Of a DNA stretch of 64,000 nt, positions 29,193 to 56,240 are shown piece by piece (position 1 is the first letter of the stretch; the number at the start of each line of letters is the position of its first letter). The DNA comes from Demequina aestuarii (GTDB taxonomy: Bacteria; Actinomycetota; Actinomycetes; Actinomycetales; Demequinaceae), in the NCBI RefSeq assembly GCF_000975095.1, contig NZ_BBRD01000001.1, positions 1,755,467 to 1,819,466 of the forward strand, read 5' to 3'. Under the pieces are notes generated by a model, which searched no databases, was not told the origin of the DNA, and saw only the letters and a program-made list of their open reading frames with translations. Made by a program: the position numbers and the translations under genes.

Positions 29193-29213
29193 CCCCGCCC
29201 CATGCCCGTCGCC

Positions 29214-29245
29214 ATGTATCCACAAGTATGGGTATCGGATACAAT
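29214..29245 (+). promoter_or_regulatory. Operator pair and -10 box of the allophanate hydrolase gene
   Basis: Boxes ATGTATCCAC (29214-29223) and TCGGATACAA (29235-29244, inverted) have centres exactly 21 bp apart. TACAAT (29240-29245) is the likely -10 and overlaps the second box, so a bound GntR-type regulator would block RNA polymerase. Confidence 0.7.
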
Positions 29246-29279
29246 AATGACGGCCTTGCTTCCTGCAGAGAGACGGACC

Positions 29280-31028
29280 ATGCCCCTCACGCCCCGCACC
29301 CCGTCACCCGTGTCCCGCGCCCAGGAGGCGCTCCGCGCCATGGAGAGGCACGCCGCAATCCCCGTGTGGATCGAGCGCAGGAGCGACGAGCACATCCTCG
29401 AGGACGCGCGACGCGTGGAGGAGCGGCTCGAGTCGGGAGAGGACCTGCCCCTCGCGGGAGCCACGGTGGCAGTCAAGGCGAACATCGACGTCGCCGGCCT
29501 TCGCACGAGCGCCGCCCACCCCGAGTACGGTGACGCAGCGGCCGCGGACGCCCCCGCCGTGGCTCGCCTGAGAGATGCCGGTGCGATCATCCTCGGCTCG
29601 GCGAACATGGACCAGTTCGCCACCGGGCTCGTGGGCACTCGCAGCCCTTACGGAGCGCTGGAGAGCGTCACGCATCCGGGGCGGGTCGCGGGCGGGTCCT
29701 CGTCCGGATCTGCGGTCGCCGTGGCGTCGGGCATCGCTGACATCGCCCTCGGAACGGACACGGCCGGCTCCGGCCGTGTCCCGGCCTCCTTCAACGGCAT
29801 CGTCGGAGTGAAGGCGAGCCGCGGGCTGGTGCCCGCCGCGGGCGTGGTCCCCGCCTCCCGCTCGTACGACTGCGTGACGGTCTTCGCGCGCGACCTCGGC
29901 CTCGCGACCACTGCCCTCTCCGTCATCATCGGCCCTCACGACGCGGACCCCCTGAGCAGGTCGTGGCCCGCAGACATGCCACTGGCCGCACCCGCACGCC
30001 CGCGAGTGGGCATCCCGGTCCCTGCACAGCTGGCGACCCTCGACGAGGAGCGACGCTCGCGCTTCGCCGCATGCGCCGAGGCCCTTCGCGCTCGGGGCGC
30101 CGACGTCACCGAAGTCTCGATCGCCGACCTCCTGGACGCCGCACGTCTGCTCTACGAAGGCGCCCTGGTCGCCGAGCGTGCGGCAGCCTATGGCGACTTC
30201 CTGCCGGCGCACCCCGAGGGTGCGGACCCGACGGTCGCACGCATCGCACAGGCCGCCGGGCGCTTCGACGCGGTCTCGCTGGTCCGCGACGTCGAACAGC
30301 TCGACCGCTACCGCGCCGCCGCGCGGACCCTCCTCGCCGACTTGGATGCGCTGCTGGTGCCCACCGCCCCCCGGCACCCCACGCTGGACGACGTGGCCGG
30401 CGACCCGATCGGCGTGAACGCCCAGGTGGGCACGTACACGAACTTCCTGAACCTGCTGGACCTGTGCGGCGTCGCGGTGCCGGTGGCGGACACATCGACG
30501 GGCGGCTTCGGCGTCACCGTGGTCGCTCCGGCCTTTCACGACCAGGTCGCGCTCGACATCGCCGCCGACGTCGTCGGCGACCCCCGCCCCACCCTGCGAC
30601 ACGGCCACGAGCACGATGTGGTGGTGTTCGGGGCGCATATGAGCGGACTGCCCCTCAATACGCAGCTCACCGAGCGTGGCGCGAGGTTCGTCGGCCGCGT
30701 CACGACCGCACCGCGCTATCGGATGGTCGACCTGCCCGGCCCGATCGACCGCCCCGGAGTGGCACCCGCCACTGATGGCCCTGGCCACGCGATCAGTGGC
30801 GAGCGATGGTCGCTGTCCCCCGCTGCTCTGGCCAGCCTGGTGAGCGTGCTCACCGAGCCGATGGCGGTGGGCCCGGTGGTGCTCGAGGACGGCTCGACCG
30901 TCACGGGATTCCTGTGCTCCCGGATGGAGGGGCCGGACATCAGCGCCGTCGGCGACTGGCGGGCGCATCGTGCGAGTGGCGACGCGCCCAGGGAGAGCCT
31001 TGAGGCTCGCGAGCCTCGGACCCTATAA
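29280..31028 (+). CDS. atzF: Allophanate hydrolase (amidase + C-terminal AHS domain)
   Basis: A 582-residue enzyme that cleaves allophanate to two ammonia and two CO2. The N-terminal amidase-signature domain has K66 (VAVKANID), cis-Ser in GGSSSGSA (about 140-142) and nucleophile S164 in GTDTAGSGR. The C-terminal domain (VVVFGAHMSGLPLNTQL ... YRMVDLPG) is the one found in AtzF/urea amidolyase, which sets it apart from generic amidases. I use ATG 29280; ATG 29247 lies too close to the -10 box at 29240-29245. It completes the urea carboxylase pathway with the gene at 35271-38873. Confidence 0.88.
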   Translation: MPLTPRTPSPVSRAQEALRAMERHAAIPVWIERRSDEHILEDARRVEERLESGEDLPLAGATVAVKANIDVAGLRTSAAHPEYGDAAAADAPAVARLRDAGAIILGSANMDQFATGLVGTRSPYGALESVTHPGRVAGGSSSGSAVAVASGIADIALGTDTAGSGRVPASFNGIVGVKASRGLVPAAGVVPASRSYDCVTVFARDLGLATTALSVIIGPHDADPLSRSWPADMPLAAPARPRVGIPVPAQLATLDEERRSRFAACAEALRARGADVTEVSIADLLDAARLLYEGALVAERAAAYGDFLPAHPEGADPTVARIAQAAGRFDAVSLVRDVEQLDRYRAAARTLLADLDALLVPTAPRHPTLDDVAGDPIGVNAQVGTYTNFLNLLDLCGVAVPVADTSTGGFGVTVVAPAFHDQVALDIAADVVGDPRPTLRHGHEHDVVVFGAHMSGLPLNTQLTERGARFVGRVTTAPRYRMVDLPGPIDRPGVAPATDGPGHAISGERWSLSPAALASLVSVLTEPMAVGPVVLEDGSTVTGFLCSRMEGPDISAVGDWRAHRASGDAPRESLEAREPRTL

Positions 31029-31046
31029 TGAGGAGATTGTATCCAC
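31024..31046 (+). promoter_or_regulatory. Promoter and operator of the gntR gene
   Basis: TATAAT (31024-31029) overlaps the stop of the hydrolase gene. Box TTGTATCCAC (31037-31046) lies just downstream, at the expected start of transcription. A weak second box (TCGGACCCTA, 31016-31025) sits exactly 21 bp upstream. This suggests autoregulation. Confidence 0.65.
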
Positions 31047-31121
31047 CCTGCTAGGGGCGGTCATGACCCCACTCACGGGCGTCACGGTCGCCGCAATCTG
31101 CCTCAGACAAGGATTCGCGCC

Positions 31122-31832
31122 ATGTCGCCCACTCCCTCCTCGACCGCGCTCGTCGATGAGCTCGCGGACCGCATCCGCGAGATGATCCTGTCCGGAGAGG
31201 TGCCGGTGGGACGCCCACTGCGCCAGGCGGACCTCGCGGAGCAGTTCGGGATCAGCCGCACTCCCGTGCGCGAGGCGCTGCGCCAGCTGCACTCGACCGG
31301 CCTCATCGAGCTCCACCCCCACCGGGGCGCCATCGTGCGCGTGCCGGTGCCGTGGGAGGTGCGCGAGACGTACGAGGTTCGCGCCGAGCTCGAGGCCCTC
31401 GCCGCCCGCCGCGCCGCCACCCGGCTGTCGAGCGAGACGATCTCTCGCATGCGGGAGGCCAACGATGCGCTCTACGCGCTCACGATGTCGATGGCCGACG
31501 CGCCCGATTCTGCGGGTGCCGCGCCCTCGGGCGGGGTCGCGAATGAGTACGCGCTGCACCCGGCGATCCACGAGGCCGCGGAGAACGCGCGCCTCACGCG
31601 GATGCTCCACGACATCAACCTCTCCTACCCCAGGAACGTGCCCGCCGTGCTGCTGGTTGAGAACGTGCGCCACCGCGAGGAGAACCACCACGATCACGTC
31701 GACATCATCGACGCCTTGGCGGAGGGCGACGGCGACCGAGCGGCCACGCTCATGCGCGCGCACGTGCTGAAGACGGGCGACCAGGTCGCTCGCTGGTACG
31801 AGCGTCATTCCGACACGACCGTACGCGGCTGA
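31122..31832 (+). CDS. GntR-family (FCD/FadR subfamily) transcriptional regulator
   Basis: A 236-residue regulator. The N-terminal winged helix contains LADRIREMILSGEVPVG and QFGISRTPVREALRQL. The C-terminal helical FCD domain has candidate metal ligands in LHPAIHEAAEN, ENHHDHVDIIDAL and MRAHV. Such proteins usually release DNA on binding a carboxylate or pathway intermediate. The start has AAGGA 8 nt upstream. Boxes of one type occur upstream of this gene and of four other transcription units of the island, so it is the likely local regulator. The inducer is unknown. Confidence 0.9.
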   Translation: MSPTPSSTALVDELADRIREMILSGEVPVGRPLRQADLAEQFGISRTPVREALRQLHSTGLIELHPHRGAIVRVPVPWEVRETYEVRAELEALAARRAATRLSSETISRMREANDALYALTMSMADAPDSAGAAPSGGVANEYALHPAIHEAAENARLTRMLHDINLSYPRNVPAVLLVENVRHREENHHDHVDIIDALAEGDGDRAATLMRAHVLKTGDQVARWYERHSDTTVRG

Positions 31833-31888
31833 CCGGACCGACGGCGGGGCTCGACCCACGCACAGTCCTGTCGTGCGCGCCTACCTCT

Positions 31889-31919
31889 TTGTATACAATA
31901 AATAGATGAACGTATCCAC
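31889..31919 (+). promoter_or_regulatory. Operator pair and -10 box of the MFS transporter gene
   Basis: The perfect palindrome TTGTATACAA (31889-31898) and ACGTATCCAC (31910-31919) have centres 21 bp apart. TACAAT (31894-31899) is the likely -10 and overlaps the first box. Confidence 0.7.
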
Positions 31920-31937
31920 CGCTCGAGTGCTCCGCCC

Positions 31938-33188
31938 ATGACGAGCGCCGCCAGACACGGCCCCTCGGCCCGCGGCATCCGCTCGGTGGGCTTCTGGCTC
32001 ATCGTGGTGGCCGCATCGGCCAACTACTCCGTCAACGCTGCCGCCGCGCCCCTGCTCACGCGAGGAACCCTCGAGGTGCTCGGCCAGGACGCCGCCGCCG
32101 CCGGTGGCCTGGTCGCCATCACGGGCATCACTGCGATCGTCGCCATGGCCGCCGCGGGAGTCGCCGCCGATCGAGTGGGACCGAAGACCGTCGCCGTGGC
32201 GGCATCCGTGCTCGCCATCGCGGGCGTCGGGCTGCTGATCGTCAGCTTCACGGTGCCCTCGATCGCCGTGAGCCGGCTCGCGTACGGCGCGGGAAACGCG
32301 GGCGTCACCATCGCCACCACCTCGTGGGTCGCCCTCTCGACCCCTCACCACCAACGGGGACGCGCGCTCGGGTACTACGGCATCAGCGTGTGGGTGGGCC
32401 TTGCCGCGGGCCCGCTCCTGGCAGAGAACCTCTACGCGTGGGCGGGCAACAGCGCCGCGTGGGCCGGGATGGCGATCCTGCAGGTGATGGCGCTCGGCAT
32501 CGCGGCACTGGTGGCGTCCACGCCCACCGTCCACCCGGCCGATGCGCGCAAGGAGTCCGGGCCGGCCTCGCCGGAGAGCCTCACGGCGGCAGCGCTCAGG
32601 CGCTCCCTCGCTCGCGCGGTCTGGGTTCCTGCAGTGATCAGCCTCGCTGCGTGGGGGGCGCAGGGACTGCTGACCGCGTTCCTGGTGCTCCACCTCCAGG
32701 CCCAGGGCATGCCCGCCTCCGGAGTGGGCGGCGCCGCCACCATCTTCGTGGTCTTCGCCGCGAGCGTCGTCGTCGCGCGCATCGCGCTCGGAGCAGCAAC
32801 GGACCGCATCGCGGTCACGTCCACGGCGCGCGCCTCGCTCGCGGTGGTCGCCGCGGGCCTGTCCGTGATCGCCTTCGCGCCGACCTTCTGGTGGGCCGCC
32901 GCGGGCGCAGCTGTGCTCGGGGTGGGGTACGCGCCCCTGTACCCCACCCTCACCCTGATGGCGACGGCTCCGCTGCCGCCCGCACGCCAGTCCACGGCCA
33001 TCGGCTTCTTCTCCGCGGCGACGGCGCTCGGGATGGCGGTGGGCCCCGCTCTCGGCGGCCTGTCGATCACGGCGACCAGCTCGACCGTGGCCTTCGTGGG
33101 CGCCGCGGTGGTGCAGCTCGCGGTGATCCCCGTGGTGAGGTTCTCCGCGCCAGCACGCGAAACGGCCCCCCAGGCCACACGGGCCTGA
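31938..33188 (+). CDS. Major facilitator superfamily transporter of the island
   Basis: A 416-residue, 12-helix protein. The A-motif-like loop after helix 2 is GVAADRVGPKTVAVAA; a long central loop (about residues 195-225) separates the halves. The second half contains VGYAPLYPTLTLMAT and ATALGMAVGPALGGL. The start is ATG 31938, just downstream of the operator pair. It presumably imports the pathway substrate or exports an intermediate. Substrate and direction are not inferable from sequence. It converges on the creatininase-family gene with a hairpin between. Confidence 0.82.
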   Translation: MTSAARHGPSARGIRSVGFWLIVVAASANYSVNAAAAPLLTRGTLEVLGQDAAAAGGLVAITGITAIVAMAAAGVAADRVGPKTVAVAASVLAIAGVGLLIVSFTVPSIAVSRLAYGAGNAGVTIATTSWVALSTPHHQRGRALGYYGISVWVGLAAGPLLAENLYAWAGNSAAWAGMAILQVMALGIAALVASTPTVHPADARKESGPASPESLTAAALRRSLARAVWVPAVISLAAWGAQGLLTAFLVLHLQAQGMPASGVGGAATIFVVFAASVVVARIALGAATDRIAVTSTARASLAVVAAGLSVIAFAPTFWWAAAGAAVLGVGYAPLYPTLTLMATAPLPPARQSTAIGFFSAATALGMAVGPALGGLSITATSSTVAFVGAAVVQLAVIPVVRFSAPARETAPQATRA

Positions 33189-33217
33189 GGGGCCGACGCT
33201 CCGTCGGTTGTCAGGCC
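33182..33217. terminator. Bidirectional hairpin between the MFS and creatininase-family genes
   Basis: GGCCTGA (33182-33188) pairs with TCAGGCC (33211-33217), and inside it CCGACG (33193-33198) pairs with CGTCGG (33202-33207). Both flanking stop codons are within or next to the stem. Confidence 0.7.
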
Positions 33218-34023
33218 TAGCGGGTGGGCTCCGGCTGAGGCTCGCGAATGGCGGCCGCAAGGGCCCGCGCGGTCCGGACCACGCAGCGCTCGAACTCGTC
33301 GCGGCCGTGCTCAGCGGACGCCTGCTCGACGTCCCGGCCCCACACGCCCGAATCGCTGACCTGGTCCATGCGGTAGTCCCAGAACGAATCCACATCGAGG
33401 TGCGACGTGGCCCGCGACATGTCCACGAGCTCCGGGCGCAGGTGAAGCATCACCGACGTCTCGAAGAAGTTCGCGTGCATCAGGCCGCGGCCGTACTGCA
33501 CGTGACCGTCGACCTCGGGGCCCGGGTACATCGACACGTAGCCGATGGAGCGTGCACGAACGTCGTCGTAGCGCGTGCGGAGCTTCTCGAGTGACACATC
33601 GAGCGCGCCGATGTTCCACATGTGTCCGGACATGAAGATGAACTGACGCACTCCCGAGCGGTACAGCGAGTCCGTGAGGTCCTCCATGATGGCGATGAGG
33701 GTCTCGGGCCGGAGCGTCAGCGTGCCCGCGAAGTCGCCGTGAGAGGCGGACACGCCCACCGACACCGGCGGGATCGTGGGGATGCCGGTGACTGCGGACA
33801 CCGCCTCCGCGACCGCCATGTCGATCTCGGTGTCGACGTTCATGGGCAGGTGAGGCCCGTGCTGCTCGATCGCGCCGATGGGGATGATCACCGCGCGGTG
33901 GTGCTCCACGAGCGCAGGGATCTGTGGCCAGGACATTTCTTCCCAGCGCACGGGCACGCCCGGTCCACCGAGTTCGGCGGCGAGGTCGCGGATGTCGAGA
34001 GAGTCGGGTGAAGCATCAGTCAT
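33217..34023 (-). CDS. Creatininase-family amide hydrolase with altered active-site motifs
   Basis: A 268-residue protein of the creatininase/MftE/ArfB family, which hydrolyses small or cyclic amides with two metals. The first metal site is intact: E53, H55 and D64 in IEQHGPHLPMNVDTEI. The usual NGHGGN or NGHYEN motif is SGHMWN (H134 kept, W136 where creatininase has a metal-ligand Glu). The later HAGExET motif is HANFFETS. Activity is plausible but the substrate pocket is unusual. It is last in the carboxylase/amidohydrolase/deaminase/creatininase unit, with ATGACTGA overlap to the deaminase gene. Confidence 0.82.
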   Translation of the reverse strand: MTDASPDSLDIRDLAAELGGPGVPVRWEEMSWPQIPALVEHHRAVIIPIGAIEQHGPHLPMNVDTEIDMAVAEAVSAVTGIPTIPPVSVGVSASHGDFAGTLTLRPETLIAIMEDLTDSLYRSGVRQFIFMSGHMWNIGALDVSLEKLRTRYDDVRARSIGYVSMYPGPEVDGHVQYGRGLMHANFFETSVMLHLRPELVDMSRATSHLDVDSFWDYRMDQVSDSGVWGRDVEQASAEHGRDEFERCVVRTARALAAAIREPQPEPTR

Positions 34024-34516
34024 GGGGGTTCTCCTGGGCAGGCGTCGCGGAGGATGGTGCTGCGAGGCGGCCCGGTCGTGGGTGGTGGAAAGGAAGCAGC
34101 CGCGCGGGGGTCACGGCTTCGGGAGTGTCGCCGTGTCCGACCCACACCCGCGCATCGGGGCAGTGGTCGACCAGCAGCTCGGCGCACACGCCGCACGGCT
34201 CGATCAGGTAGTCCGTGCCGTCGGCGCGCCGCAGGACGGCGACGATCGCGGTGACAGGCTCTCCGGGGAACGCGGCGCCCGCCGCCGACAGGGCTCCGGA
34301 CTCGGCGCACACCGAGGCTCGGCCCTGCGACGCCTCGAGGTGCAGCCCGGTGACGATCGCGCCGGACTCCACTCGGACGGCGGCCGCGACGTCGTGGCGG
34401 CCGGCCACGTAGGCGCGCTCCAGCACGCTCCGCGCGGCCCCGAGCAGTTCGCGGTCGCCCGCATCGGCCATCGCGGCGAGCGTCGCATCGGCCGTGGGCC
34501 GTGGGGCGGGCGTCAC
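34016..34516 (-). CDS. Cytidine-deaminase-like zinc enzyme
   Basis: A 166-residue protein with the cytidine/blasticidin-deaminase fold signature. C70 and catalytic E72 lie in VCAESGAL; C108 and C111 lie in PCGVCAE. These are the three Cys ligands and proton shuttle of the small tetrameric class. The start is GTG 34516, overlapping the upstream stop (GTGA). Classical Cdd is about 130 residues; this one has an extra Pro/Ala-rich C-terminal tail. Its operon context argues for deamination of a pathway intermediate containing C=NH or C-NH2 rather than nucleoside salvage (inference). Confidence 0.82.
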   Translation of the reverse strand: MTPAPRPTADATLAAMADAGDRELLGAARSVLERAYVAGRHDVAAAVRVESGAIVTGLHLEASQGRASVCAESGALSAAGAAFPGEPVTAIVAVLRRADGTDYLIEPCGVCAELLVDHCPDARVWVGHGDTPEAVTPARLLPFHHPRPGRLAAPSSATPAQENPHD

Positions 34517-35274
34517 GCCCACCCCATGATGCGGGCCATGTTGCCGCCCTCGATGAGGGCGCGATCGGCGTCGTCCGGCACAGCCTTCGCGATCTTCATG
34601 CGCTCGAGGTCGAAGTCGCTTCCCGGCCACTCGGAGCCGAACAGGATCTTCTCGGGCCCCACGCGCGCGTACGCACGCTTGACGTCGGCCATGAGGGTGG
34701 CGGAGGTCTCGAGGTAGATGTTGTCCCGGCGCTCGGCCACGATGATGGCCTCGGGGACATTCCACACCGCACCCATGTGAGCGATGATCGTCGGCACGGT
34801 CGGGTGGTCCTTGGCGATCTCCTCGATCGCGAGCGGCGCGCAGAACGCATCGTCGAGAGCGTTGATCAGCACCGGGATGCCCAGCTCGGCACACGCCTCG
34901 AAGACCGGGTCCAGGAGCCCATGGTCGGCCACGTGATAGCCGTGCATGCTGGGGTGAAGTTTGAGTCCCACCAGGCCATCGTCCACGAACCGGCGGATCT
35001 GATCCACCGCATCGTCGTGCTGGGGCATGACCTGGCCGAAACCGAACAGGCGATCCGGGTGCTTGGCGACCAGCTCGACAAGGAACTCGTTCTCGATGCG
35101 CTGCGCGAGCGAGCACACCATCGCCTTGTCGACGCCGGCGGCGTCCATGCGGGTGATGATGCGGTTCGAGTCGAACGGCGTGTACGGCGGCGGCGCCTGT
35201 CCGGGACGCGCTCCCGTCAAGTAGTCGCTCCGGCCCCGCACGTCCTGGGTCGTGTTGTAGGCGTCGATGATCAT
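34513..35274 (-). CDS. Amidohydrolase-2-type TIM-barrel hydrolase
   Basis: A 253-residue protein. The barrel pattern is clear: LVGLKLHPSMHGY, LGIPVLINALDD, PTIIAHMGAVWN, NIYLETSA, KILFGSEWPGSDF. The usual N-terminal metal motif HxH is replaced by DAYNTT, and the His normally found in the strand ending INALDD is absent. The metal site is thus reduced or rearranged. Start: ATG 35274, inside an ATGA overlap with the carboxylase stop, with GAAGGAGA upstream. Hydrolase or decarboxylase activity is possible; the substrate is unknown. Confidence 0.8.
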   Translation of the reverse strand: MIIDAYNTTQDVRGRSDYLTGARPGQAPPPYTPFDSNRIITRMDAAGVDKAMVCSLAQRIENEFLVELVAKHPDRLFGFGQVMPQHDDAVDQIRRFVDDGLVGLKLHPSMHGYHVADHGLLDPVFEACAELGIPVLINALDDAFCAPLAIEEIAKDHPTVPTIIAHMGAVWNVPEAIIVAERRDNIYLETSATLMADVKRAYARVGPEKILFGSEWPGSDFDLERMKIAKAVPDDADRALIEGGNMARIMGWA

Positions 35275-38200
35275 GCGTTCTCCTTCGATGGTGCGGACGG
35301 GCGGACCACGGCGATGGCCTGGCCCGCTGAGACGACCTGTCCGGGACGGACAAGGATGTCGATGACGTGTGAGTGGGCCCGAGGGGCGACGGGAAGCTCC
35401 ATCTTCATGGCCTCGAGAACGACGATGCGCCCGGAGGAGTCGACCTCGTCGCCCGCCTGAGCCGACACGCGCCACACGCTGCCGGCCATGGGGGCCTCGA
35501 CGATCTCGCATCCGGGCGGGACCTGGACGTCCGCCGTCACGGCGACCGGCGCATCGGCCGCCGCCTCCTGGACGTCGAACTCGCCGGCGGCCTCCCACTG
35601 CGCGCGCTCGGTCGCGAACGCCTGGGCCTGGCGGGCACGGAACTCCGCGATCGAGCCGGCCTCCTGGGCGAGGAACGCCTGGTGCTCCGCCAGCGAGAAG
35701 CGGCCCTCGGTGATGTCCACGTCCATGCGGCCCGCGACGAACTCGCGGCGCAGGTGCTCGAGCTCGTCCGCGGGCACGTCGACGAACCGCACCCGGTCGA
35801 AGAACCGCAGCAGCCACGGCTTGCCCGCCTCGAAGCTCGGACGGCCCTCGCGCAGTCCCGCCCAGATGGGCAGAGTGCGCCCGACGAGCTGATATCCGCC
35901 CGGGCTGTCCATCCCATAGATGCACATGTATGAGCCGCCGATCCCGACGGTGCCCTCGGCGGTCCAGGTGCGGGCGGGGTTGTACTTGGTGGTGACCAGC
36001 CGGTGCCGGGGGTCCACCGGGGTCGCGGCGGGCGCGCCAAGGTAGACGTCGCCGAGCCCCAGCACCAGGTACTCGGCGTCGAAGACGATGCGACGCACGT
36101 CCTCAACGGTGTCGAGACCGTTGATGCGACGCATGAACTCGAGGTTGGACGGATTCCACGGCGCGTCGTCGCGCACCAGGTCCTGATAGCGGTCGATGGC
36201 CTCGGCCACGACCGGGTCATCCCAGGACATCGGCAGCACCACCTCGCGGCTGGGCGCGGTCAGGTCTGCACCGTCCGGCAGCTCGCCTTCGAGCTCCGCG
36301 AGCAGGCCGTGGAGGCTGCGCACCGACAGCTGATCGGCGTCCACGTGGAAGTGCAGCGAGCGGATGCCAGGGGTCATGTCGAGGAGCCCCGGGGGTCGGT
36401 GCCGCTCGACCGCCTCCATGAGGGCGTGGACACGCATGCGCAGCGCGAGGTCCAGCTCCATCGGCCCGTACTCGAGCAGCAGGTTGTCATCTCCCCCGCG
36501 CCGGTAGACCACCTCGGGCGCATCGGCCGATGCGGGGGTGCGGGCGAGGACGCCGTGGTCGTCGTCGCGACGCGTCACCGATGGCTCGAAGGGTGCGGCG
36601 GCCCTCCGGGCCTCGCGCACCTGCGGGAGGGTGGGTTCGTCGACGGGGGCGAGTCGCACGGTGTCGCCTGGGCGCAGCTGGCCGAGCTTCCAGCGATCGG
36701 CCGAGACCACGGTGAACGGACACGCGAAACCGCCCAGAGACGGCCCGTCGGGACCGAGGATCGAGGGAGTGTCGCCCGTGAAGTTGATGGCGCCCACCGA
36801 GTACGGGTTGTCGTGGAGATTCGAGGGATGCAGTCCCGCCTCGCCACCGTCCGGCCGGGCCCAGGCGGGCTGAGGGCCGGTGAGCCTCACTCCGGTGCGC
36901 GCCGCGTGCACGTGCACGGTCCAGGTCGCCTCGTACAGGGCCGCGATCGACTCAGGAGTGAAGTACTCCGGCGCAGGCTGAGGGCCCTCCGCGACGTGAA
37001 GCACCCATTCCGAGTCGATCGCGGGACGATCATGCGGGGTCGGGACGAGGGAGGCCGCCTCACGGGCGGCCCCGGGGTGCAGCACATCCCCCGCGCGCAG
37101 TTCCCGGCCACCGTGACCGCCGAAGCCGCCGGGAACGAACGTCGAGGTGCTCCCCAGGTACTCCGCGGCGTCGAAACCGCCGCGCGTCGCCACATACGTG
37201 CGGGCGCCCGATGCGGGGGTCGCGATCTCCAGCGACTGGCCCGCCTCGATCGACACCGGCTCCCACATGGGGACGGAGCGACCACCGACCCTGACCTCGG
37301 CGGCCGCGCCGGTGACGGCGACCACGGTGTCGTAGGAGAACTCCAGGACGGGGCCGAGCATGGTGGCCTCGAGCGCCGTGGTGCCTTCGGGATTGCCCAC
37401 GATGCGATTGGCCCAGCGGAACGACACGTCGTCGAACGGGCCCGACGGGGGCACGCCCACCTGCCAGTGGCCGATGCGACCGGGCCAGTCCTGAAGGGTG
37501 GTCGACATGCCCGCTCTGGCGACGCGGATGCGCTGCGGAATCAGGTCGACGGTGCCGAGGAGCCCGGTCGAGACGTCTCCGGACCACACGCGGGGTTCCT
37601 CGATGGCGGCTTTGAGCAGCGGGATGTTGGTCTCGATCCCACGGATGACCGTGCCCGCGAGCGCCTCCCGCATGAGGTCGAGCGCGCCGTCGCGAGTGGG
37701 CGCCGTGACGATGATCTTGGCGAGCAGGCTGTCGTAATGGGCGGTGACGACGTCGCCGCGCTCCACCCCCGACTCGACGCGGATGCCGGGCCCGTCCGGG
37801 AGGACCACCTCCGTGAGCACTCCTGCGCTGGGGCGATGGTCGACGAAGGGATCCTCGGCGCACAGCCGGACCTCGATCGAATGACCCGTGACGCTGTGGT
37901 CGTCGAGCAGCGGTGCACCAGCGGCGAGTCCGAGCATCGTGCCGACGAGGTCGACGCCTGTCACCTCCTCGGTGACGGCGTGCTCGACCTGGAGGCGGGT
38001 GTTCGCCTCCAGGAAATACACGTCGTCGCCCGCGACCAGGAACTCCACGGTGCCGACGGATCGATAGTCGACCGCGGCCGCGACGGCGCGCGCGTGGTCG
38101 TGGAGTCGCGTGCGCAGGTCGCGGCTGAGTCCTGGCGCGGGCGCCTCCTCGACGACCTTCTGGTGGCGGCGCTGCAGACTGCAGTCACGGTCTCCGAGCA

Positions 38201-38873
38201 CCGATACCGTGCCGGCGCCATCGCCCACGATCTGCACCTCGACGTGGCGCGGATCGTCGATGAGCTTCTCGACGAACACGTCCCCGCTGGCGAAATGGCG
38301 ACGAGCGAGAGCGCCCACGGCCTCGAAGGCTGCCTCGAGAGAGGCGACATCATCACAGCGCTCGACGCCCACGCCTCCCCCGCCGCCGACGGCCTTGAGC
38401 ATCACGGGAAGGCCGATGCGCTGCGCCTGCGCGACCGCCTCCGCGGCGGATCCCACGATGCCGCTGCCGGGCACGCACGGCACTCCCGCCCTGTCGGCGA
38501 CCTCCCGGGCCTGCGCCTTGGAGCCGAAGAGGCGGATCTGCTCGGGGGTGGGGCCGATGAAGGCAAGCCCCGCCGCCTCGACCGCCACTGCGAAGTCCGC
38601 GTTCTCGGACAGGAAGCCGTACCCGGGGTGGACCGCATCGGCGCCCGTGGCGAGTGCGATCGCGACGATCTCGTCGGCCGCCAGATACCCCTGACCACTC
38701 TCCGACAGCGCGATCGCCTGATCCGCCTCGCGGACGTGCGCGGCCGCTGAGTCGACGGCGGTGTAGATGCCGACCGACCGCAATCCCGCCGCGCGGGTGC
38801 CACGGATCAGCCGGCGAGCGATCTCTCCGCGGTTCGCGATGAGGACTGTCGAGAGCGATCGTGTCTGTGCCAC
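35271..38873 (-). CDS. uca: Urea carboxylase-type biotin enzyme (BC + KipA/KipI-like + BCCP)
   Basis: A 1200-residue protein with the full urea carboxylase architecture. Biotin carboxylase spans about 1-445 (ANRGEIARRLIRGTRAAGL; DAVHPGYGFLSEN; DRDCSLQRRHQKVVEEAPAP). The AHS2/KipA-like part spans about 448-770 (ARAGMSTTLQDWPGR; GVPPSGPFDDVSF). The AHS1/KipI-like part spans about 790-1030 (PGIRSLHFHVD; GYQLVGRTLPIW). The biotinyl domain carries K1157 in LEAMKMELP. It should carboxylate urea to allophanate with ATP and bicarbonate. Guanidine carboxylase shares this architecture, but no carboxyguanidine deiminase (cgdAB) gene is present. First gene of a four-gene overlapping operon under twin operators. 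Confidence 0.88.
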   Translation of the reverse strand: MAQTRSLSTVLIANRGEIARRLIRGTRAAGLRSVGIYTAVDSAAAHVREADQAIALSESGQGYLAADEIVAIALATGADAVHPGYGFLSENADFAVAVEAAGLAFIGPTPEQIRLFGSKAQAREVADRAGVPCVPGSGIVGSAAEAVAQAQRIGLPVMLKAVGGGGGVGVERCDDVASLEAAFEAVGALARRHFASGDVFVEKLIDDPRHVEVQIVGDGAGTVSVLGDRDCSLQRRHQKVVEEAPAPGLSRDLRTRLHDHARAVAAAVDYRSVGTVEFLVAGDDVYFLEANTRLQVEHAVTEEVTGVDLVGTMLGLAAGAPLLDDHSVTGHSIEVRLCAEDPFVDHRPSAGVLTEVVLPDGPGIRVESGVERGDVVTAHYDSLLAKIIVTAPTRDGALDLMREALAGTVIRGIETNIPLLKAAIEEPRVWSGDVSTGLLGTVDLIPQRIRVARAGMSTTLQDWPGRIGHWQVGVPPSGPFDDVSFRWANRIVGNPEGTTALEATMLGPVLEFSYDTVVAVTGAAAEVRVGGRSVPMWEPVSIEAGQSLEIATPASGARTYVATRGGFDAAEYLGSTSTFVPGGFGGHGGRELRAGDVLHPGAAREAASLVPTPHDRPAIDSEWVLHVAEGPQPAPEYFTPESIAALYEATWTVHVHAARTGVRLTGPQPAWARPDGGEAGLHPSNLHDNPYSVGAINFTGDTPSILGPDGPSLGGFACPFTVVSADRWKLGQLRPGDTVRLAPVDEPTLPQVREARRAAAPFEPSVTRRDDDHGVLARTPASADAPEVVYRRGGDDNLLLEYGPMELDLALRMRVHALMEAVERHRPPGLLDMTPGIRSLHFHVDADQLSVRSLHGLLAELEGELPDGADLTAPSREVVLPMSWDDPVVAEAIDRYQDLVRDDAPWNPSNLEFMRRINGLDTVEDVRRIVFDAEYLVLGLGDVYLGAPAATPVDPRHRLVTTKYNPARTWTAEGTVGIGGSYMCIYGMDSPGGYQLVGRTLPIWAGLREGRPSFEAGKPWLLRFFDRVRFVDVPADELEHLRREFVAGRMDVDITEGRFSLAEHQAFLAQEAGSIAEFRARQAQAFATERAQWEAAGEFDVQEAAADAPVAVTADVQVPPGCEIVEAPMAGSVWRVSAQAGDEVDSSGRIVVLEAMKMELPVAPRAHSHVIDILVRPGQVVSAGQAIAVVRPSAPSKENA
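36519..36534. repeat. Full palindrome of the over-represented 10-mer
   Basis: CGCATCGGCCGATGCG is a perfect 16-bp palindrome inside the carboxylase gene. It is two overlapping copies of the motif CGCATCGGCC/GGCCGATGCG, which occurs about 30 more times in the window (see findings). Confidence 0.85.
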
Positions 38874-38937
38874 AGCTGGGACCCTTCGTCGGCTGGAGTG
38901 GAGGCCGCCGCTGAGCGCGAGTGCAACTCGAGCGGTT

Positions 38938-38968
38938 TTGTATCCAATCTAGCGCACGATGTATCCGC
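38938..38968 (-). promoter_or_regulatory. Operator pair and -10 box of the urea carboxylase operon
   Basis: Boxes TTGTATCCAA (38938-38947) and ATGTATCCGC (38959-38968) have centres 21 bp apart. On the minus strand TAGATT (38951-38946) is the likely -10, wedged between them. The leader to the ATG at 38873 is about 65 nt. Confidence 0.7.
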
Positions 38969-39289
38969 GTTGAGACATTGGGGTTTCGCTCGCGTAAATT
39001 TGTCGCGGGCAGCGGCGCCTGCGACACCTCAGGGGGGCCACTGCCACGGCACCGACGTGCCTGCTGGCGAGGGCCGGAGCCGCGCCGACCGCACCCGGGC
39101 GCTGGCGGCTCGCCCGCTGGCTCGCACGGGCACACCACCTCCGAGGCCGACCGCCCCTCCGGCCACTCCGGGCGCCCGTCCAGTCTTCTCGGGCGCGCGC
39201 GGGCGGGCGCGAGGCCGCGCGCCGCGCGCTCCGGTCGCCCCGGGGGTGGGGGCGAGGAATTTACATGGTCGTAACATCAGTGTTCCGAC

Positions 39290-39341
39290 TCGGATACATA
39301 GATCGATAGATTGGATACACGTCGACGAGAGTTGTATCAAT
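39290..39341 (+). promoter_or_regulatory. Triple operator and -10 box of the importer operon
   Basis: Three boxes, TCGGATACAT (39290-39299), TTGGATACAC (39311-39320) and TTGTATCAAT (39332-39341), have centres at 21-bp steps. TAGATT (39307-39312) is the likely -10, with the same distance to its upstream box as in the divergent carboxylase promoter. Confidence 0.72.
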
Positions 39342-39486: not shown

Positions 39487-41067
39487 ATGCCTAGGACACT
39501 CATCGCCACCGCTGCGGTCGCAGTGGCTGCGAGCCTCACGCTCGCCGCCTGCTCGACTGCAGGAGACTCCGACACCGCAGACTCCCCCACCGCCGGCGCA
39601 CCGGGCGCCTCCGGGACCATCAACACGGTCCTCTGGTACGCACCCTCGAACTTCAACCCCGCGACGTCGGCGTCATCGCCGGACTACACGGCCGCGGCAC
39701 TGGGCTTCGACACCCTCGTCGCGAAGGGCGAGGACGGGTTCGTCCCCGGGCTGGCATCGTCGTGGGAAGCCGCTGATGCGAGCACCTACACCTTCACGAT
39801 CCGCGACGGCGCGATGTGTGCGGACGGCACCGAGATCACGCCGCAGGTGGTGGCGGACTCCTTCGAATACCTCGCGAGCGCCGAGGACTCGGGCGCGCAG
39901 AACTGGTCGAGCCTCGCGTTCGGCCAGGGCGAGCCCACGTTCACGGCGGACGACGAGGCCGGCACGCTCGCCATCTCGTTGTCCGAGCCGTACTCGCAGC
40001 TCATCGGCGGGCTCGCTCTCGACGGCACCGGCATCATCTGCCCCGCGGGGCTCGCCGACCTTGACGGCCTCGCCGCCGGCACCGTGGACGGTGCCTTCTC
40101 GGGTCCCTATACGATCTCCGACTACAGCGCCGGCGTCTCCGTCTCCTACGCCCTGCGTGAGGACTACGACGCGTGGCCCGAGTGGACCTCCGTCGAAGGC
40201 GAGCCCGCACAGACCATCAACATCACGGTCGAGACGGACGCCAACACCTCGGCGAACCTGCTGACGTCTGGCGGGCTCGATGTGGCCCGCTTCTACGACA
40301 GCAACGCGACTCGCTTCACCGAATCGGAGGACTTCTCCTACGTGACGGATGACGCCACGGGCAACGTGCTGCTGTTCAACGAGGACCCGTCCTCGGTGTT
40401 TGCCGACAACCAGGGCCTGCGCACCGCGGCCGCCCAGGCCGTCTCCGCCGAGGCCTTCAACAACGCCGCTCACGATGGGCTCGGCGGGCTGATGACCTCC
40501 GTCACGACCTCCTCCTACCAGTGTGTGTCCACCGACGAGTCATTGCTGCAGGCGTACGAACCGGAGGCCGCAGCAGAGGTGCTCGAGGGGCAGACCATCC
40601 GCATGCTGGCCATGACCAACTGGGACACCGCGGTGGACTACGTGGTCGAGGCCCTCTCCGCCGCCGGGGCCGACGTCCAGCTCACGCTGCTCGACCCCTC
40701 GGAGTGGTCGGCGCAGCTGCGCTCGGAGCCCACCACGTGGGACCTGACCATCCGTGCATCGGCCAACACGTCCGGACTGGTCCACCAGTCGATCCTCGGA
40801 GCGCTCGGGCCCTCGTTCGCTGACGGCGGCGTGAACTACACCAGCTCGGACAACCCCGAGGGCGTCGCGCTCCTCGACGCTGCGATGGCCAGCAACGACC
40901 CCGACGAGCAGTGCGCCAACCTTCTCGCGGCCCAGGAGAGCATCCTGGAGCGCGTCGATGTCCACCCGCTCGCGACGAGCACGCACTACATCGTCGCCCG
41001 TGATGGCATCAACAGCTACACGCTCTCCGGCTACTGGGACATCAGCGCCCTGCGCCTCGCGTCCTAA
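39487..41067 (+). CDS. ABC importer family 5 solute-binding lipoprotein
   Basis: A 526-residue peptide/opine/nickel-type (SBP_bac_5) binding lipoprotein. Signal peptide with lipobox LAAC gives Cys at residue 21. The mature part shows the family's LVAKGEDGFVPGLASSWE and YTFTIRDGAMCADGTEITPQVVADSFEY motifs. GGAG lies before the ATG at 39487. It is first of the six-gene importer and hydrolase operon under the triple operator. Family members bind peptides and also many small nitrogenous or heterocyclic ligands, which would fit the surrounding hydrolases; the ligand itself is unknown. Confidence 0.88.
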   Translation: MPRTLIATAAVAVAASLTLAACSTAGDSDTADSPTAGAPGASGTINTVLWYAPSNFNPATSASSPDYTAAALGFDTLVAKGEDGFVPGLASSWEAADASTYTFTIRDGAMCADGTEITPQVVADSFEYLASAEDSGAQNWSSLAFGQGEPTFTADDEAGTLAISLSEPYSQLIGGLALDGTGIICPAGLADLDGLAAGTVDGAFSGPYTISDYSAGVSVSYALREDYDAWPEWTSVEGEPAQTINITVETDANTSANLLTSGGLDVARFYDSNATRFTESEDFSYVTDDATGNVLLFNEDPSSVFADNQGLRTAAAQAVSAEAFNNAAHDGLGGLMTSVTTSSYQCVSTDESLLQAYEPEAAAEVLEGQTIRMLAMTNWDTAVDYVVEALSAAGADVQLTLLDPSEWSAQLRSEPTTWDLTIRASANTSGLVHQSILGALGPSFADGGVNYTSSDNPEGVALLDAAMASNDPDEQCANLLAAQESILERVDVHPLATSTHYIVARDGINSYTLSGYWDISALRLAS

Positions 41068-41117
41068 CCCACCAGACCTGCACCGCCCACGTCCGCTCTC
41101 CAAAGGAGTTATCGTCC

Positions 41118-42191
41118 ATGAGCCTCCCCTCCCCTCACGACGAGCCTCCGAGCGACGCGGGCGGTGCAGTGGGCGCCGCCCACGCGCCCGCCACCCCCGA
41201 CAACGGCGGCCACCGCGCGGGCTCGAACGCCGCCGCATGGCGCAGCTTCCTCACCCGGCGCGGCCTCGGTCTGATCGTCAACATCCTGCTGCTGGTGCTC
41301 GCGACGTTCTTCATCGTCCAGCTCATCCCGGGAGACCCCGCCACCGCCATCGCCGGCGAGAACGCCACGCTCGAGCAGGTCGAGCAGGTTCGCACCGAGC
41401 TGGGACTGGATCGCCCGATGTGGGACCAGCTCACCTCGTACATCGGCGGTGTCGCCCAAGGCGACTTCGGCGACTCGTTCCGCTACGGGCTCCCGGCGTT
41501 GGAGCTGGTCCTCACCGCAGCGCCGTACACCCTTGCCATCGCCGGCGTCGCAGTGTCGCTCGTGCTCGTCGTCGGCGTGACCCTCGGCATGGCCGTCGGC
41601 ATCGCCACGCGCGGCGACCGCAATGCCTGGCTCGACCGCTCGTTCACCGCAGTGATGAGCGTCATGCAATCGATTCCCCCCTACCTGCAGGCGACCATGC
41701 TGGTGCTGATCTTCGCGGTGTGGCTGGCCGTGCTGCCGCCCGCCTACTCCCTGGCCTACGGCACCGTGGAGTCGGCTCTCCTGCCCATCGCCGCACTCTC
41801 CTTCGGAGGCATCGCCTCCGTGTCTCGCATCGTCCGGCGAGAGACAGCCGTCACGCAGGAGATGGACTACATGCGCACGGCGCGCGGGTGGCGACTGCCC
41901 GCGCTGCGCAGGTTCGCCAAGCACCTGGTGCCCAACCTCCTGACGACCACGCTGACGCTGTCCGGCATCATCCTCACGTCCATGCTCGGCTCGGCCATCA
42001 TCGTCGAGACCGTCTTCGCCTGGCCCGGTCTGGGGACCACCGTGATCCAGGCCATCGCGATCGACAAGGACTACCCCGTGATCCAGGCCGCGGTGTTCTT
42101 CATCGGAGCGATCTCGATCTTCATCACCTTCGTCATCGACGTGATCCTGGGCATCATCGACCCGCGCACCTTGGGAGGTCAGCATGACTGA
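41118..42191 (+). CDS. DppB/OppB-type ABC permease
   Basis: A 357-residue permease with six predicted helices. An unusually long, Ala/Pro-rich N-terminal tail of about 45 residues precedes the first helix (LGLIVNILLLVLATFFIVQLI). Family motifs are LIPGDPATAIAGENAT, LGLDRPMWDQL and the EAA-like coupling loop DYMRTARGWRLPALRRFAKHL (shown in part: YMRTARGWRLPALRRF). An AAGGAG site precedes the ATG. It overlaps the next gene by 8 bp (ATGACTGA). Confidence 0.9.
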   Translation: MSLPSPHDEPPSDAGGAVGAAHAPATPDNGGHRAGSNAAAWRSFLTRRGLGLIVNILLLVLATFFIVQLIPGDPATAIAGENATLEQVEQVRTELGLDRPMWDQLTSYIGGVAQGDFGDSFRYGLPALELVLTAAPYTLAIAGVAVSLVLVVGVTLGMAVGIATRGDRNAWLDRSFTAVMSVMQSIPPYLQATMLVLIFAVWLAVLPPAYSLAYGTVESALLPIAALSFGGIASVSRIVRRETAVTQEMDYMRTARGWRLPALRRFAKHLVPNLLTTTLTLSGIILTSMLGSAIIVETVFAWPGLGTTVIQAIAIDKDYPVIQAAVFFIGAISIFITFVIDVILGIIDPRTLGGQHD

Positions 42192-43953
42192 CGCCGTCCG
42201 CCTGCCGTCCGACCCCGCCGAGGCACCCGCGCCGTCGATCGCCCGCAAGCGCGGATTCGTGTGGAACGGCACCCTCATCACCGGTCTCGCGATGTTTGCC
42301 GTCGTGATCGTGGTGGCTGTCGCCGCGCCGATGTTCCTCGGGGAGCAGGCCACCGCGCTCAGCGACCAGCCCAACGCCGGCCGCGGCGCGGAACACGCCC
42401 TCGGCACCGACTCCCTCGGCCGCGACATGCTCGCCCGCACGCTCGTCGCGACCCAGCTGACCGTGGGGATGGCACTCGCCGCGACCGCACTCGCGGCCGT
42501 CGCCGGCATCGCGATCGGCGTCGGCGTGTGGCTCGCACCGCGGCGCATTCGCGAGCTCGGTCTGCGTGGCATCGAGTTCGCCGTGTCCTACCCCACGTTG
42601 CTGGTGGCGATCATGGTCGCCGCGATCCTGGGCAAGGGCGCCATCACCGCCGTGTTCGCGATCGCCGTGGCGAACACCGCTGGCTTCGCGCGCCTCACCT
42701 CGAACCTCGCCGCGGGCCTGTCCAGCCGCGACTTCGTCACCACCGCGCGGCTCATGGGAGTGCCTCCGCACCGCCTCGCGATGCGCCACATCCTGCCCAA
42801 CATGTCAGAGCCCATGCTGATTCTCGTCGCCCAGGCCTTCGCGGGCGCGCTCGTCGAGATCTCCGGGCTGTCCTTCGTGGGACTCGGTTCGCAGAACCCC
42901 TCCTTCGACTTCGGCACGCTGCTGGACGACGCACTCGGCAAGCTCGGCACCAACCCCATCCTCGTCGTCGGACCCGCTGCCGCACTGGTGTTCACGTCCC
43001 TTGCCGCACTGCTCATCGGCGACGGCCTCGCCGCCGCCGCGAACCCTCGCTCGGCAGGCACCCGGTCCAAGCTGCTGCGGCTCACCCCCAGTGCGGCCGA
43101 TGCGGCGGCCGGGTCCAGCGTCGAGGCACCGGAGGCTCCCGAGGGCCTCGTCGTCGATGCACGGCGCCTCACCATCAGCCACGCCGCGAGCGGTCGCGAG
43201 CTGGTCAAGGACGTGTCCTTCACCATCCGTCGCGGCGAGATCCTCGGCATCGTCGGAGAGTCCGGGTCGGGCAAGTCCCTCACCGCCTCGACCGTTGCCC
43301 GCCTGGTGCCCGAGGGACTGGAGGCCCGAGCCGCATCGCTCGACGTCGCCGGAACCGACATGCTGGGACGCGTCTCCCCCACGGAGCTGGCTCAGCGCAT
43401 CGGCTTGGTCTACCAGGATCCGGGAACGTCGCTGAACCCCGCGTTGACGCTCGGCTCTCAGTTCTCAGACGTGCTCACGTCACGGCTGGGGCACTCGCGC
43501 AAGGAGGCTCGTGCGCGCATCGTCGCGGGCTTCCGTTCCGTGCTGCTGCCGGATCCCGAGTCGCGGTTGGGCCAGCACCCGCACGAGCTGTCAGGCGGGA
43601 TGAAGCAGCGGGCCATGATCGCCTCAGCCATGAGCACGGCGCCGGAGCTGATCATCGCCGACGAGCCCACGACCGCCCTCGACGTCACCGTGCAGCGTGA
43701 GGTGCTGTCGATCATCAAGCGGATGAACGTGGAGCACGGCACCTCGGTGCTGTTCATCTCTCACGACCTGGGCGTGGTCCGCAGCCTGTGCGACAGAGTG
43801 CTGGTGATGCGCGAAGGGCAGATCGTCGAACGCATCGACTCCACAGACCAGCTCACCGTCGACACCGTCGACCACCCGTACACGAAGCAGCTGCTGGCAG
43901 CGACACCCGTCGTCACTGTCGACGCCCTCGACGCCCCGGAGGGACGGTCATGA
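42184..43953 (+). CDS. Fused DppC-type permease and DppD-type ATPase
   Basis: A 589-residue protein joining two normally separate importer subunits. Residues 1-290 are the DppC permease: LGTDSLGRDMLARTL near the N-terminus, coupling loop TTARLMGVPPHRLAMRHILP, and LSFVGLGSQNPSFDFG. Residues about 320-585 are an ABC ATPase: Walker A GESGSGKSLT, Q-loop VYQDPGTSLNP, signature LSGGMKQRAMIA, Walker B LIIADEPTTALD. The linker is about 30 residues and Ala/Pro-rich. The reading frame is continuous, so this is a genuine fusion. ATGA overlap follows to the second ATPase gene. Confidence 0.9.
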   Translation: MTDAVRLPSDPAEAPAPSIARKRGFVWNGTLITGLAMFAVVIVVAVAAPMFLGEQATALSDQPNAGRGAEHALGTDSLGRDMLARTLVATQLTVGMALAATALAAVAGIAIGVGVWLAPRRIRELGLRGIEFAVSYPTLLVAIMVAAILGKGAITAVFAIAVANTAGFARLTSNLAAGLSSRDFVTTARLMGVPPHRLAMRHILPNMSEPMLILVAQAFAGALVEISGLSFVGLGSQNPSFDFGTLLDDALGKLGTNPILVVGPAAALVFTSLAALLIGDGLAAAANPRSAGTRSKLLRLTPSAADAAAGSSVEAPEAPEGLVVDARRLTISHAASGRELVKDVSFTIRRGEILGIVGESGSGKSLTASTVARLVPEGLEARAASLDVAGTDMLGRVSPTELAQRIGLVYQDPGTSLNPALTLGSQFSDVLTSRLGHSRKEARARIVAGFRSVLLPDPESRLGQHPHELSGGMKQRAMIASAMSTAPELIIADEPTTALDVTVQREVLSIIKRMNVEHGTSVLFISHDLGVVRSLCDRVLVMREGQIVERIDSTDQLTVDTVDHPYTKQLLAATPVVTVDALDAPEGRS

Positions 43954-44720
43954 GCGACACCTTGATCAACATCGCGGACCTGAATGTCTCGTTCGGCGAC
44001 GCGCACATCCTGCGGGACGTCGATCTCCGGCTCGAGCGCGGCCGCACCGTGGGCATCGTGGGCGAGTCCGGCTCGGGCAAGTCCACCCTCGCCAAGGCGA
44101 TGGTCGGAACCGTCAAGCCCTCGTCGGGGGAACTGTGGGTCGCGGGCCTCGACGTGCGCTCTGCCACTCGCCGCGAGCTCGCCCGCTACCGGCGCTCCGT
44201 GCAGATGATCCCGCAGGATCCCTTCTCGTCGCTGTCTCCGCGGCAGACCGTCGGCCAGACTCTCGCAGAGGCGGTCGATCCACGGCGGGCGCGAGTCGCT
44301 CACCACACGGACCTCATCGCGCACTGGCTGGAACGAGTGGGCCTCGACGCGGACATGATCCACCGCTACCCCCACGAATTCTCCGGCGGCCAGCGTCAGC
44401 GCATCGCGCTCGCGCGCGGCCTCATCGTGGAGCCCGAGCTGGTGATCGCGGACGAGATCACGTCCGCGCTCGACGTCTCCGTGCAGTCCCAGATCCTGGA
44501 CCTGCTCGACGAGATCCGCCAGTCCCTGGGGCTCACCATGGCGTTCATCTCTCACAACCTCGCGGTGGTGCAGCGCGTGAGCGACGACGTGATGGTGCTG
44601 TATCAGGGCCAGGTGGTGGAGGCGGGACCCGTCGCACAGATCTATTCGGACCCGCAACACTGGTACACGCGCCGACTGCTCGCCGCCGACCCCGGCTCGC
44701 CGACATTCTCGATCGGCTAG
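43950..44720 (+). CDS. DppF-type ABC ATPase
   Basis: A 256-residue ATPase, second nucleotide-binding subunit of the importer. Walker A is GESGSGKSTLAKAMVG, Q-loop MIPQDPFSSLSPRQTVG, signature FSGGQRQRIALARGL, Walker B LVIADEITSALD, and switch His in FISHNLAVVQRVSD. The C-terminus has the Opp-type DPQHWYTRRLLAADP segment. The ATG at 43950 overlaps the upstream stop (ATGA). Together with the fused protein it supplies the two ATPase copies required. Confidence 0.92.
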   Translation: MSDTLINIADLNVSFGDAHILRDVDLRLERGRTVGIVGESGSGKSTLAKAMVGTVKPSSGELWVAGLDVRSATRRELARYRRSVQMIPQDPFSSLSPRQTVGQTLAEAVDPRRARVAHHTDLIAHWLERVGLDADMIHRYPHEFSGGQRQRIALARGLIVEPELVIADEITSALDVSVQSQILDLLDEIRQSLGLTMAFISHNLAVVQRVSDDVMVLYQGQVVEAGPVAQIYSDPQHWYTRRLLAADPGSPTFSIG

Positions 44721-55477: not shown

Positions 55478-56233
55478 CTAAGGCGTGTTCGAGGGCCGCC
55501 GTACCGTTTTAGCGGCTCCTGCCTGCTCCCGCGGGCGGATCACCAGCTGGTCGATGTTGACGTGGTGGGGGCGCGTCACGGCCCACGTGATCGCATCGGC
55601 GATGTCGTGAGCAGTCAGTGGCTCGATGCCCTCGTACACGGCGTCCGCGGCGCGGTCGTCGCCGGCGAAGCGGTTGAGAGAGAACTCCTCGGTACGCACC
55701 ATGCCGGGCGCGATCTCGATGACGCGCACCCCGGTGCCGGTGAGCTCGAGCCGGAGCGTCCGGGTCATCGCGACCGCCGCGTGCTTGGCCGCGACGTAGC
55801 CCGCACCTTGCTCGTACGGCTCGTGGCCCGCGGTCGAGGTCACGACCACGACGTCGCCACGGCCCGAAGCGGTGAGCGCCGGCAGCAGGGCCTGCGTGAC
55901 GCGGACGGTGCCCACCACGTTGAGCTCGTACTGCGCGCTCCACGCCTCGAGGCTCGACTCGGCCACGGTGTCCCAGCCGATCGCACCACCGGCGTTGTTC
56001 ACCAGCACGTGCACGGGACCGTCCACCTCGCGCGCGAGCCGGTCCACATCGTCCTGCGAGGTGATGTCGGCCTGGATGACGGCGCAGCCGGTCTGTGCGG
56101 CGAGTTCGTCGAGGCGGTCGCGGCGGCGCGCCACGGCGGTGACGCGCATGGCGTGGTCGCGCGTGAGCGAACGGACGGTCTCGTATCCAATGCCGGACGA
56201 TGCGCCGGTGACGACGGCGTGCAAGTGTTCCAT
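55478..56233 (-). CDS. Short-chain dehydrogenase/reductase
   Basis: A 251-residue SDR with the NAD(P) motif TGASSGIG (residues 9-16), the NNAGG motif (LVNNAGGAIGW), Ser in VVVTSTAG and catalytic Y146/K150 in YVAAKHAA. RRR after strand 2 (VARRRDRL) suggests NADPH preference. The ATG at 56233 follows a TAGCCT -10 by 7 nt, giving a leaderless transcript. The substrate cannot be assigned. It closely precedes the winged-helix regulator on the same strand. Confidence 0.88.
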   Translation of the reverse strand: MEHLHAVVTGASSGIGYETVRSLTRDHAMRVTAVARRRDRLDELAAQTGCAVIQADITSQDDVDRLAREVDGPVHVLVNNAGGAIGWDTVAESSLEAWSAQYELNVVGTVRVTQALLPALTASGRGDVVVVTSTAGHEPYEQGAGYVAAKHAAVAMTRTLRLELTGTGVRVIEIAPGMVRTEEFSLNRFAGDDRAADAVYEGIEPLTAHDIADAITWAVTRPHHVNIDQLVIRPREQAGAAKTVRRPSNTP

Positions 56234-56240
56234 GGGCACG

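Follow-up and report, generated by a model that had tools for sequence, protein, structure and literature searches.

Operator boxes spaced 21 bp apart define a candidate FCD-GntR regulon for urea and allophanate use in Demequina aestuarii and three further genera

Results

Genes and operator boxes of the island

We analyzed a 64-kb stretch (hereafter the window; GC 0.70) of the 2.79-Mb Demequina aestuarii genome. It contains an island comprising an allophanate hydrolase gene, a gene for an FCD-GntR transcription factor, an MFS transporter gene, a urea carboxylase gene run on the minus strand, and an importer gene run on the plus strand (Table 1). The allophanate hydrolase gene probably starts at 29280, downstream of its operator boxes, rather than at 29202, the start of the longest open reading frame. 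The amidohydrolase encoded at 34513-35274 is the best conserved enzyme of the regulon; its relatives, present in 11 other genomes, are 80-90% identical, which exceeds the values of its neighbors, and no curated function model reached its cut-off for this protein.

Table 1. Genes, candidate operators, and promoter elements of the island in the window
Feature	Position	Strand	Basis or remark
Operator pair before allophanate hydrolase gene	29216..29242 (boxes 29216-29221, 29237-29242)		Partner at 21 bp in 3/3 Demequina orthologues
Allophanate hydrolase	29280..31028	+	TIGR02713, 579 bits (cut-off 511)
Single operator box before gntR, proposed autoregulation	31039..31044	+	Single in 4/4 Demequina islands
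FCD-GntR transcription factor, proposed repressor	31122..31832	+	PF00392, 65.1 bits (cut-off 27); PF07729, 72.2 bits (cut-off 24.3)
Operator pair before MFS gene	31891..31917 (boxes 31891-31896, 31912-31917)		Box positions, 21-bp pair, Demequina orthologues
MFS transporter	31938..33188	+	PF07690
Creatininase-family hydrolase	33217..34023	-	PF02633, 211 bits; TIGR04448, 126 vs 235 (below creatininase equivalog cut-off)
Cytidine-deaminase-like protein	34016..34516	-	PF00383
Amidohydrolase (Amidohydro_2)	34513..35274	-	PF04909
Urea carboxylase	35271..38873	-	TIGR02712, 1566 bits (cut-off 1304)
Operator pair of urea carboxylase promoter	38940..38966 (boxes 38940-38945, 38961-38966)		Box positions, 21-bp pair, Demequina orthologues
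Likely -10 element TAGATT, urea carboxylase promoter	38946..38951	-	By eye
GlnR-type box TTTAC-N6-GAAAC	38983..38998	-	16 bp upstream of first urea carboxylase operator
GlnR-type box TTTAC-N6-GTAAC	39260..39275	+	16 bp upstream of first importer operator
Three operators of importer promoter	39292..39339 (box starts 39292, 39313, 39334)		Successive 21-bp steps
Likely -10 element TAGATT, importer promoter	39307..39312	+	By eye; TAGATT in 4/4 Demequina
Peptide-type ABC importer (binding protein, two permease domains, two ATPase domains)	39487..44720	+	
Second amidohydrolase, Xaa-Pro dipeptidase/imidazolonepropionase-like	44742..46007	+	Below equivalog cut-offs; follows importer genes

Ten operator boxes were found in the window, and their 6-mer starts match the box centers given by an earlier sequence-only reading of this DNA. 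That reading had claimed that every neighboring pair at five promoters is 21 bp apart, whichever way the box points. The spacing was observed at four of the five promoters, the importer promoter carrying three boxes, but not at the gntR promoter, where a single box lies. The weak gntR partner proposed at 31020.5 scores 0.6 compared with 10.7-21.7 for the ten boxes, and a 21-bp partner is likewise absent from the three Demequina orthologous gntR promoters; the island therefore has four paired or triple promoters and one single-box promoter. Because the box is a palindrome with the core GKATMC (best matches TTGKATMCAA), its direction means little. The third importer box reads GTATCA in the window and GGATGC in the three orthologues, and the -10-like hexamer of the urea carboxylase promoter is TAGATT in three and TAAATT in one of the four Demequina promoters. 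A lone strong-scoring box at 56181-56188 (site 56183) lies within a short-chain-dehydrogenase-like reading frame (55478-56239) and was taken as a chance match.

Spacing of the boxes

The exact hexamer GTATCC alone was not enriched, with 11 occurrences in the window compared with 9.2 expected. We thus rejected single-box enrichment as evidence and relied on the phasing of the boxes and their place. GKATMC pairs at 21 bp occur four times in the window, where pairs at any other distance between 7 and 60 bp are absent. In 300 dinucleotide shuffles, the mean number of pairs at 21 bp was 0.04 and the maximum was 2, and within the 7-60 bp range no single spacing ever exceeded two pairs. The whole genome holds the exact 21-bp pair at six places, four of them in the island, and one-mismatch palindromes number 25 in the genome (5 in the island) against 9 in the reversed control. 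On the question of whether the boxes are equally frequent elsewhere in the genome, which the sequence-only reading had raised against itself, single boxes do occur elsewhere, whereas phased pairs cluster in the island.

The preference for 21 bp was also evident outside the window. In stretches picked by gene, with our own window excluded, 24 of the 31 GKATMC pairs spaced 7-60 bp apart were at 21 bp; seven other spacings appeared once each and none recurred. In nine islands, a set that takes in our own island and stretches fetched for holding pairs, the corresponding count was 37 of 47. When GGATCC pairs spaced 9-39 bp apart were counted genome-wide in seven genomes, 42 of 297 were at 21 bp, compared with 8.5 per other spacing. 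We used this spacing spectrum instead of a reversed-pattern control (62 forward matches and 1 reversed over eight genomes), which was too lenient because the reversed hexamer may simply be rare. A looser pair pattern, GKATVC, was rejected because its background was too high, with matches in 43 of 44 genomes of the genus. The number of exact pairs per genome does not separate carriers of the regulator from others, since the counts overlap among 99 relatives: the carriers have 6, 3, 3, and 3, and genomes without a regulator orthologue have up to 6 (G060), with 5 in both G044 and G089. The median GC of the spacers was 0.33 (50 pairs, 12 genomes), compared with 0.70 for the window.

Orthologous islands in Demequina

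The regulator is 62-63% identical in 3 of 43 other Demequina genomes (G008, G010, and G023). Their islands are syntenic with that of D. aestuarii, all twelve genes tested are present, and boxes stand at all five promoters of each, whereas the sequence-only reading had named an absence of boxes from orthologous islands as a refutation. We performed a held-out test in which a matrix was built from the boxes of the window only, the strongest site per promoter served as the anchor, and a second site was sought 8-45 bp away. The results revealed that the distance to the best second site was exactly 21 bp at all 12 two-box promoters of the three islands (those of the allophanate hydrolase, MFS, urea carboxylase, and importer genes) and at none of the three gntR promoters. 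Of these 12 partners, five scored weakly (4.9 to 9.7), and without the anchor they would be difficult to detect. The single box at the Demequina gntR promoters indicates that pairing is not obligatory. A weak third box, resembling that of the importer promoter, was also seen in G010 and G008, 21 bp further downstream in their urea carboxylase promoters (L037 18483 and L039 18579; score 6.7).

GlnR-type boxes beside the operators

All eight urea carboxylase and importer promoters of the four Demequina islands carry a GlnR-type box upstream of the first operator, at a distance of exactly 16 bp; this gap places the -10-like TAGATT (TAAATT in one) 31 bp after the GlnR-type box. Published GlnR boxes are given as gTnAc-n6-GaAAc and t/gTAAC-n6-Gc/aAAC in the available text of PMC10704036; all eight Demequina boxes resemble them, with TTTAC as the first half and GAAAC or GTAAC as the second. 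The pattern KTNACN6GWAAC, which was chosen after our own sequence had been seen, has 19 matches in the genome, including the two at these promoters, compared with 5 for its reversed control. The genome encodes a GlnR: the L123 product matched PDB 8hih with E=2.7e-84 and 4o1h, which is named GlnR, with 1.8e-25. In other genera, the gap from the box to the pair downstream of it is 17-18 bp at three g30 promoters, 45-46 bp in three g42 genomes, and 5 bp in one g30 case. GlnR-type boxes lie near only 15 of the 50 pairs.

The regulon in other genera

We searched 396 genomes drawn evenly from the order for relatives of the amidohydrolase 34513-35274 (E<=1e-50) and of the regulator (E<=1e-40). Both were found in the same 12 genomes, namely four Demequina, five of genus g42, two of g30, and one of g50. 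In the eight genomes of the three non-Demequina genera, the FCD-GntR is 53-62% identical, and the gntR match is preceded in 8 of 8 by an exact 21-bp pair, at a distance of 101-170 bp as obtained by subtraction. In each of the eight, the gene run with the amidohydrolase is likewise preceded by a pair, the placement coming from predicted genes for five stretches and from position for the remaining three (g42 in each case). Regulator, amidohydrolase, and phased sites thus travel together in four genera, in agreement with the earlier proposal of one regulon under one FCD-GntR. The proposal that the island holds only one regulator gene agrees with the finding that the sole match of the regulator in its own genome at E<=1e-3 is itself.

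The gene order of the other genera differs from that of the Demequina island, and in the five g42 genomes the amidohydrolase run is on a different contig from gntR or 0.8 Mb distant. Each of two diverged second gntR copies (L177, L178; G107, G146) is preceded by a 21-bp pair of its own, located 29 bp upstream. Gene starts predicted with a simple codon-score finder lay within 400 bp of 32 of 34 pairs in 17 fetched stretches, several of which had been chosen for their pairs; one pair lies inside a predicted gene.

A deaminase-like gene is present in all 12 carriers, and a creatininase-like gene in 10, being missing from the G237 and G339 stretches. We considered whether the urea branch was an addition of Demequina, and the flanks in G107, G211, G237, and G339 ruled this out. 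In G107 (L190 1482-4893), a pair precedes a TIGR03425 gene, for a urea amidolyase associated protein (275 bits, cut-off 206), behind which an allophanate hydrolase gene (45%) lies on the same strand. In G211, an allophanate hydrolase gene (47%) lies about 1.6 kb beyond a pair. G237 and G339 have both a urea carboxylase and an allophanate hydrolase gene (49-56%) a few kb outside the island, and the stretch with these genes contains no exact pair. Urea carboxylase was not found in the searched stretches of G107 and G211 or in the 20 kb searched of the 21.7-kb G125 contig.

Several kinds of genes adjoin pairs in the other genera (L167, L168, L185, L186, L188, and L190). They encode PTE-family, RidA-like, cupin, and arylformamidase-like proteins, as well as ectoine-hydrolase-like, EgtE-like, Rieske, and aldehyde dehydrogenase proteins, with several of these annotations falling below equivalog cut-offs.

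Discussion

The boxes of the island belong to a real and sharply delimited regulon with a wider reach than the sequence-only reading recognized; that reading missed both the GlnR-type boxes and the extension beyond Demequina. The protein family is ordinary. The regulator has the GntR winged helix at the N-terminus and the FCD domain at the C-terminus that mark the FCD subfamily, and, as expected of this subfamily, its palindromic candidate operators lie near the promoter core (50 pairs, 12 genomes). What is unusual is the rigid operator spacing and the pairing with GlnR-type boxes.

The palindromes beside a -10-like hexamer, the conserved FCD-GntR, and the box at its own promoter suggest a repressor that is relieved by a substrate. 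We consider it highly probable that a dimeric repressor of this type acts through dimers paired at 21 bp, with additional activation by GlnR at two operons; the binding, repression, cooperativity, inducer, and dual control we infer, and the sites are linked to the regulator by co-occurrence and place. The protein encoded at 31122-31832 would form a dimer that binds the palindromic core and is released by substrate. At most target promoters two dimers, and at the importer promoter three, would sit 21 bp apart on one face of the DNA, beside and around the -10 element, and would thereby block RNA polymerase. The box before gntR would provide autoregulation. GlnR, which can repress as well as activate according to the available text of PMC10704036, would bind just upstream at the urea carboxylase and importer operons and activate them under nitrogen limitation. 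With GlnR and GntR control combined, these two operons would answer both to nitrogen shortage and to the inducer of the pathway itself, a pathway that would end in the use of urea or allophanate.

Contact between adjacent dimers is the most likely reason for the fixed spacing. The strongest competing explanation, which we regard as a genuine but less favored possibility, is that two GntR dimers bind independently and that 21 bp is a matter of promoter geometry, one box lying in the spacer or at -35 and the next after the -10 element. Many pairs, judged by eye, do flank a TAGAWT-like hexamer, and the protein does not have the N-terminal extension through which NanR cooperates. However, also by eye, the phase of the -10-like hexamer at the MFS promoter (clear in three of four genomes) differs from that at the urea carboxylase and importer promoters, and the 21 bp stays constant, so that dimer contact appears to explain the spacing better than promoter geometry does. 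Several pairs, moreover, are common to divergent genes, and the third importer box holds the 21 bp further downstream.

Other assignments of role fare worse than a repressor acting through paired dimers. GntR could be an activator, its upstream boxes aiding polymerase; this is improbable, as the boxes abut the -10-like hexamer and the FCD regulators NanR and AlkR are described as repressors in the available texts (PMC8012715, PMC12042122). A shade less probable again is that another regulator reads the boxes and gntR is merely one more target. In its favor, a TetR-like N-terminus was noticed by eye nearby in G237 and G339; against this, all 12 genomes combine the FCD-GntR with the sites and carry a site ahead of the gene, and the palindrome is of the kind that FCD-GntR dimers bind, as far as PMC12042122 describes it. 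That the phased boxes are a product of chance, an idea to which the unenriched hexamer might lend itself, is hardly conceivable in view of the shuffles and the held-out tests.

The proposed repressor may be compared with Escherichia coli NanR, a GntR/FCD protein whose dimers use a 32-residue N-terminal extension for cooperative binding to GGTATA repeats, a mechanism described as unique among reported GntR mechanisms (PMC8012715, available text). As in that description of NanR, several GntR dimers per promoter and a multi-operon catabolic regulon are predicted here, and repression weakened by an effector, described for NanR, is proposed for the Demequina FCD-GntR. Unlike NanR, with its three GGTATA repeats, the Demequina sites do not have such repeats as their core; the core consists of GKATMC palindromes 21 bp apart. 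The GntR domain of the window protein begins at residue 11, with about ten residues before it, and a long NanR-like extension is thus absent from this protein, the aligned relatives being cut to the matched stretch. Contact between dimers would therefore need a route other than the NanR extension. Our literature search for FCD/GntR regulators with a tandem, cooperative, or 21-bp arrangement yielded NanR only, and a search with the operator letters gave no GntR title among the matches listed.

Caulobacter VanR has ATTGGATCCAAT operators, whose core is TTGGATCCAA, a point of resemblance to the Demequina boxes. Like the VanR-group repressors, the Demequina regulator would have a palindromic operator at the -10 element and catabolic targets. 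For AlkR, an FCD repressor of the VanR group, protection of one main palindrome and two further weak sites is reported, and the available text describes no fixed two-turn pair such as that of the Demequina boxes (PMC12042122).

Nitrogen control of these enzymes has precedents in systems whose regulator AmtR is of the TetR type; unlike in those systems, the pathway-specific regulator in Demequina is an FCD-GntR. In mycobacteria and other Actinobacteria, the urea carboxylase and allophanate hydrolase genes have been linked with AmtR, GlnR, and nitrogen limitation (PMC4222082, PMC4617892, PMC10704036, available texts). The GlnR-type boxes in Demequina would put the same urea-using enzymes under nitrogen control.

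It is an evenly balanced question whether this is an undescribed actinobacterial regulon that turns a nitrogenous substrate into urea or allophanate, in which an FCD-GntR without a NanR-like extension binds as cooperative dimer pairs at an invariant 21 bp and, with an upstream GlnR box at key operons, forms a fixed two-input promoter that has been reused at different genes in four genera. The regulon offers some fifty candidate paired operators with one spacing, which are suited to testing cooperation of an FCD-GntR without the NanR extension. Regulation alone marks the amidohydrolase, deaminase-like, creatininase-like, PTE-family, and RidA-like genes as likely members of a single pathway, and the combination of a GlnR-type box with a putative repressor pair at fixed distances makes a compact natural promoter.

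We also surveyed more distant GntR relatives (the best 80 of 172; D. flava excepted, about 27-36% identical over long stretches and more over short ones). Near these, tblastn gave only ABC-transporter matches and partial urea-carboxylase matches. An exact 21-bp pair was present at 1 of 79 distant GntR loci, L109, in a Hyphomicrobiales assembly, where a GTATAC pair (7358-7384) lies approximately 0.24 kb before a 30% identical GntR; it may represent chance or a wider habit.
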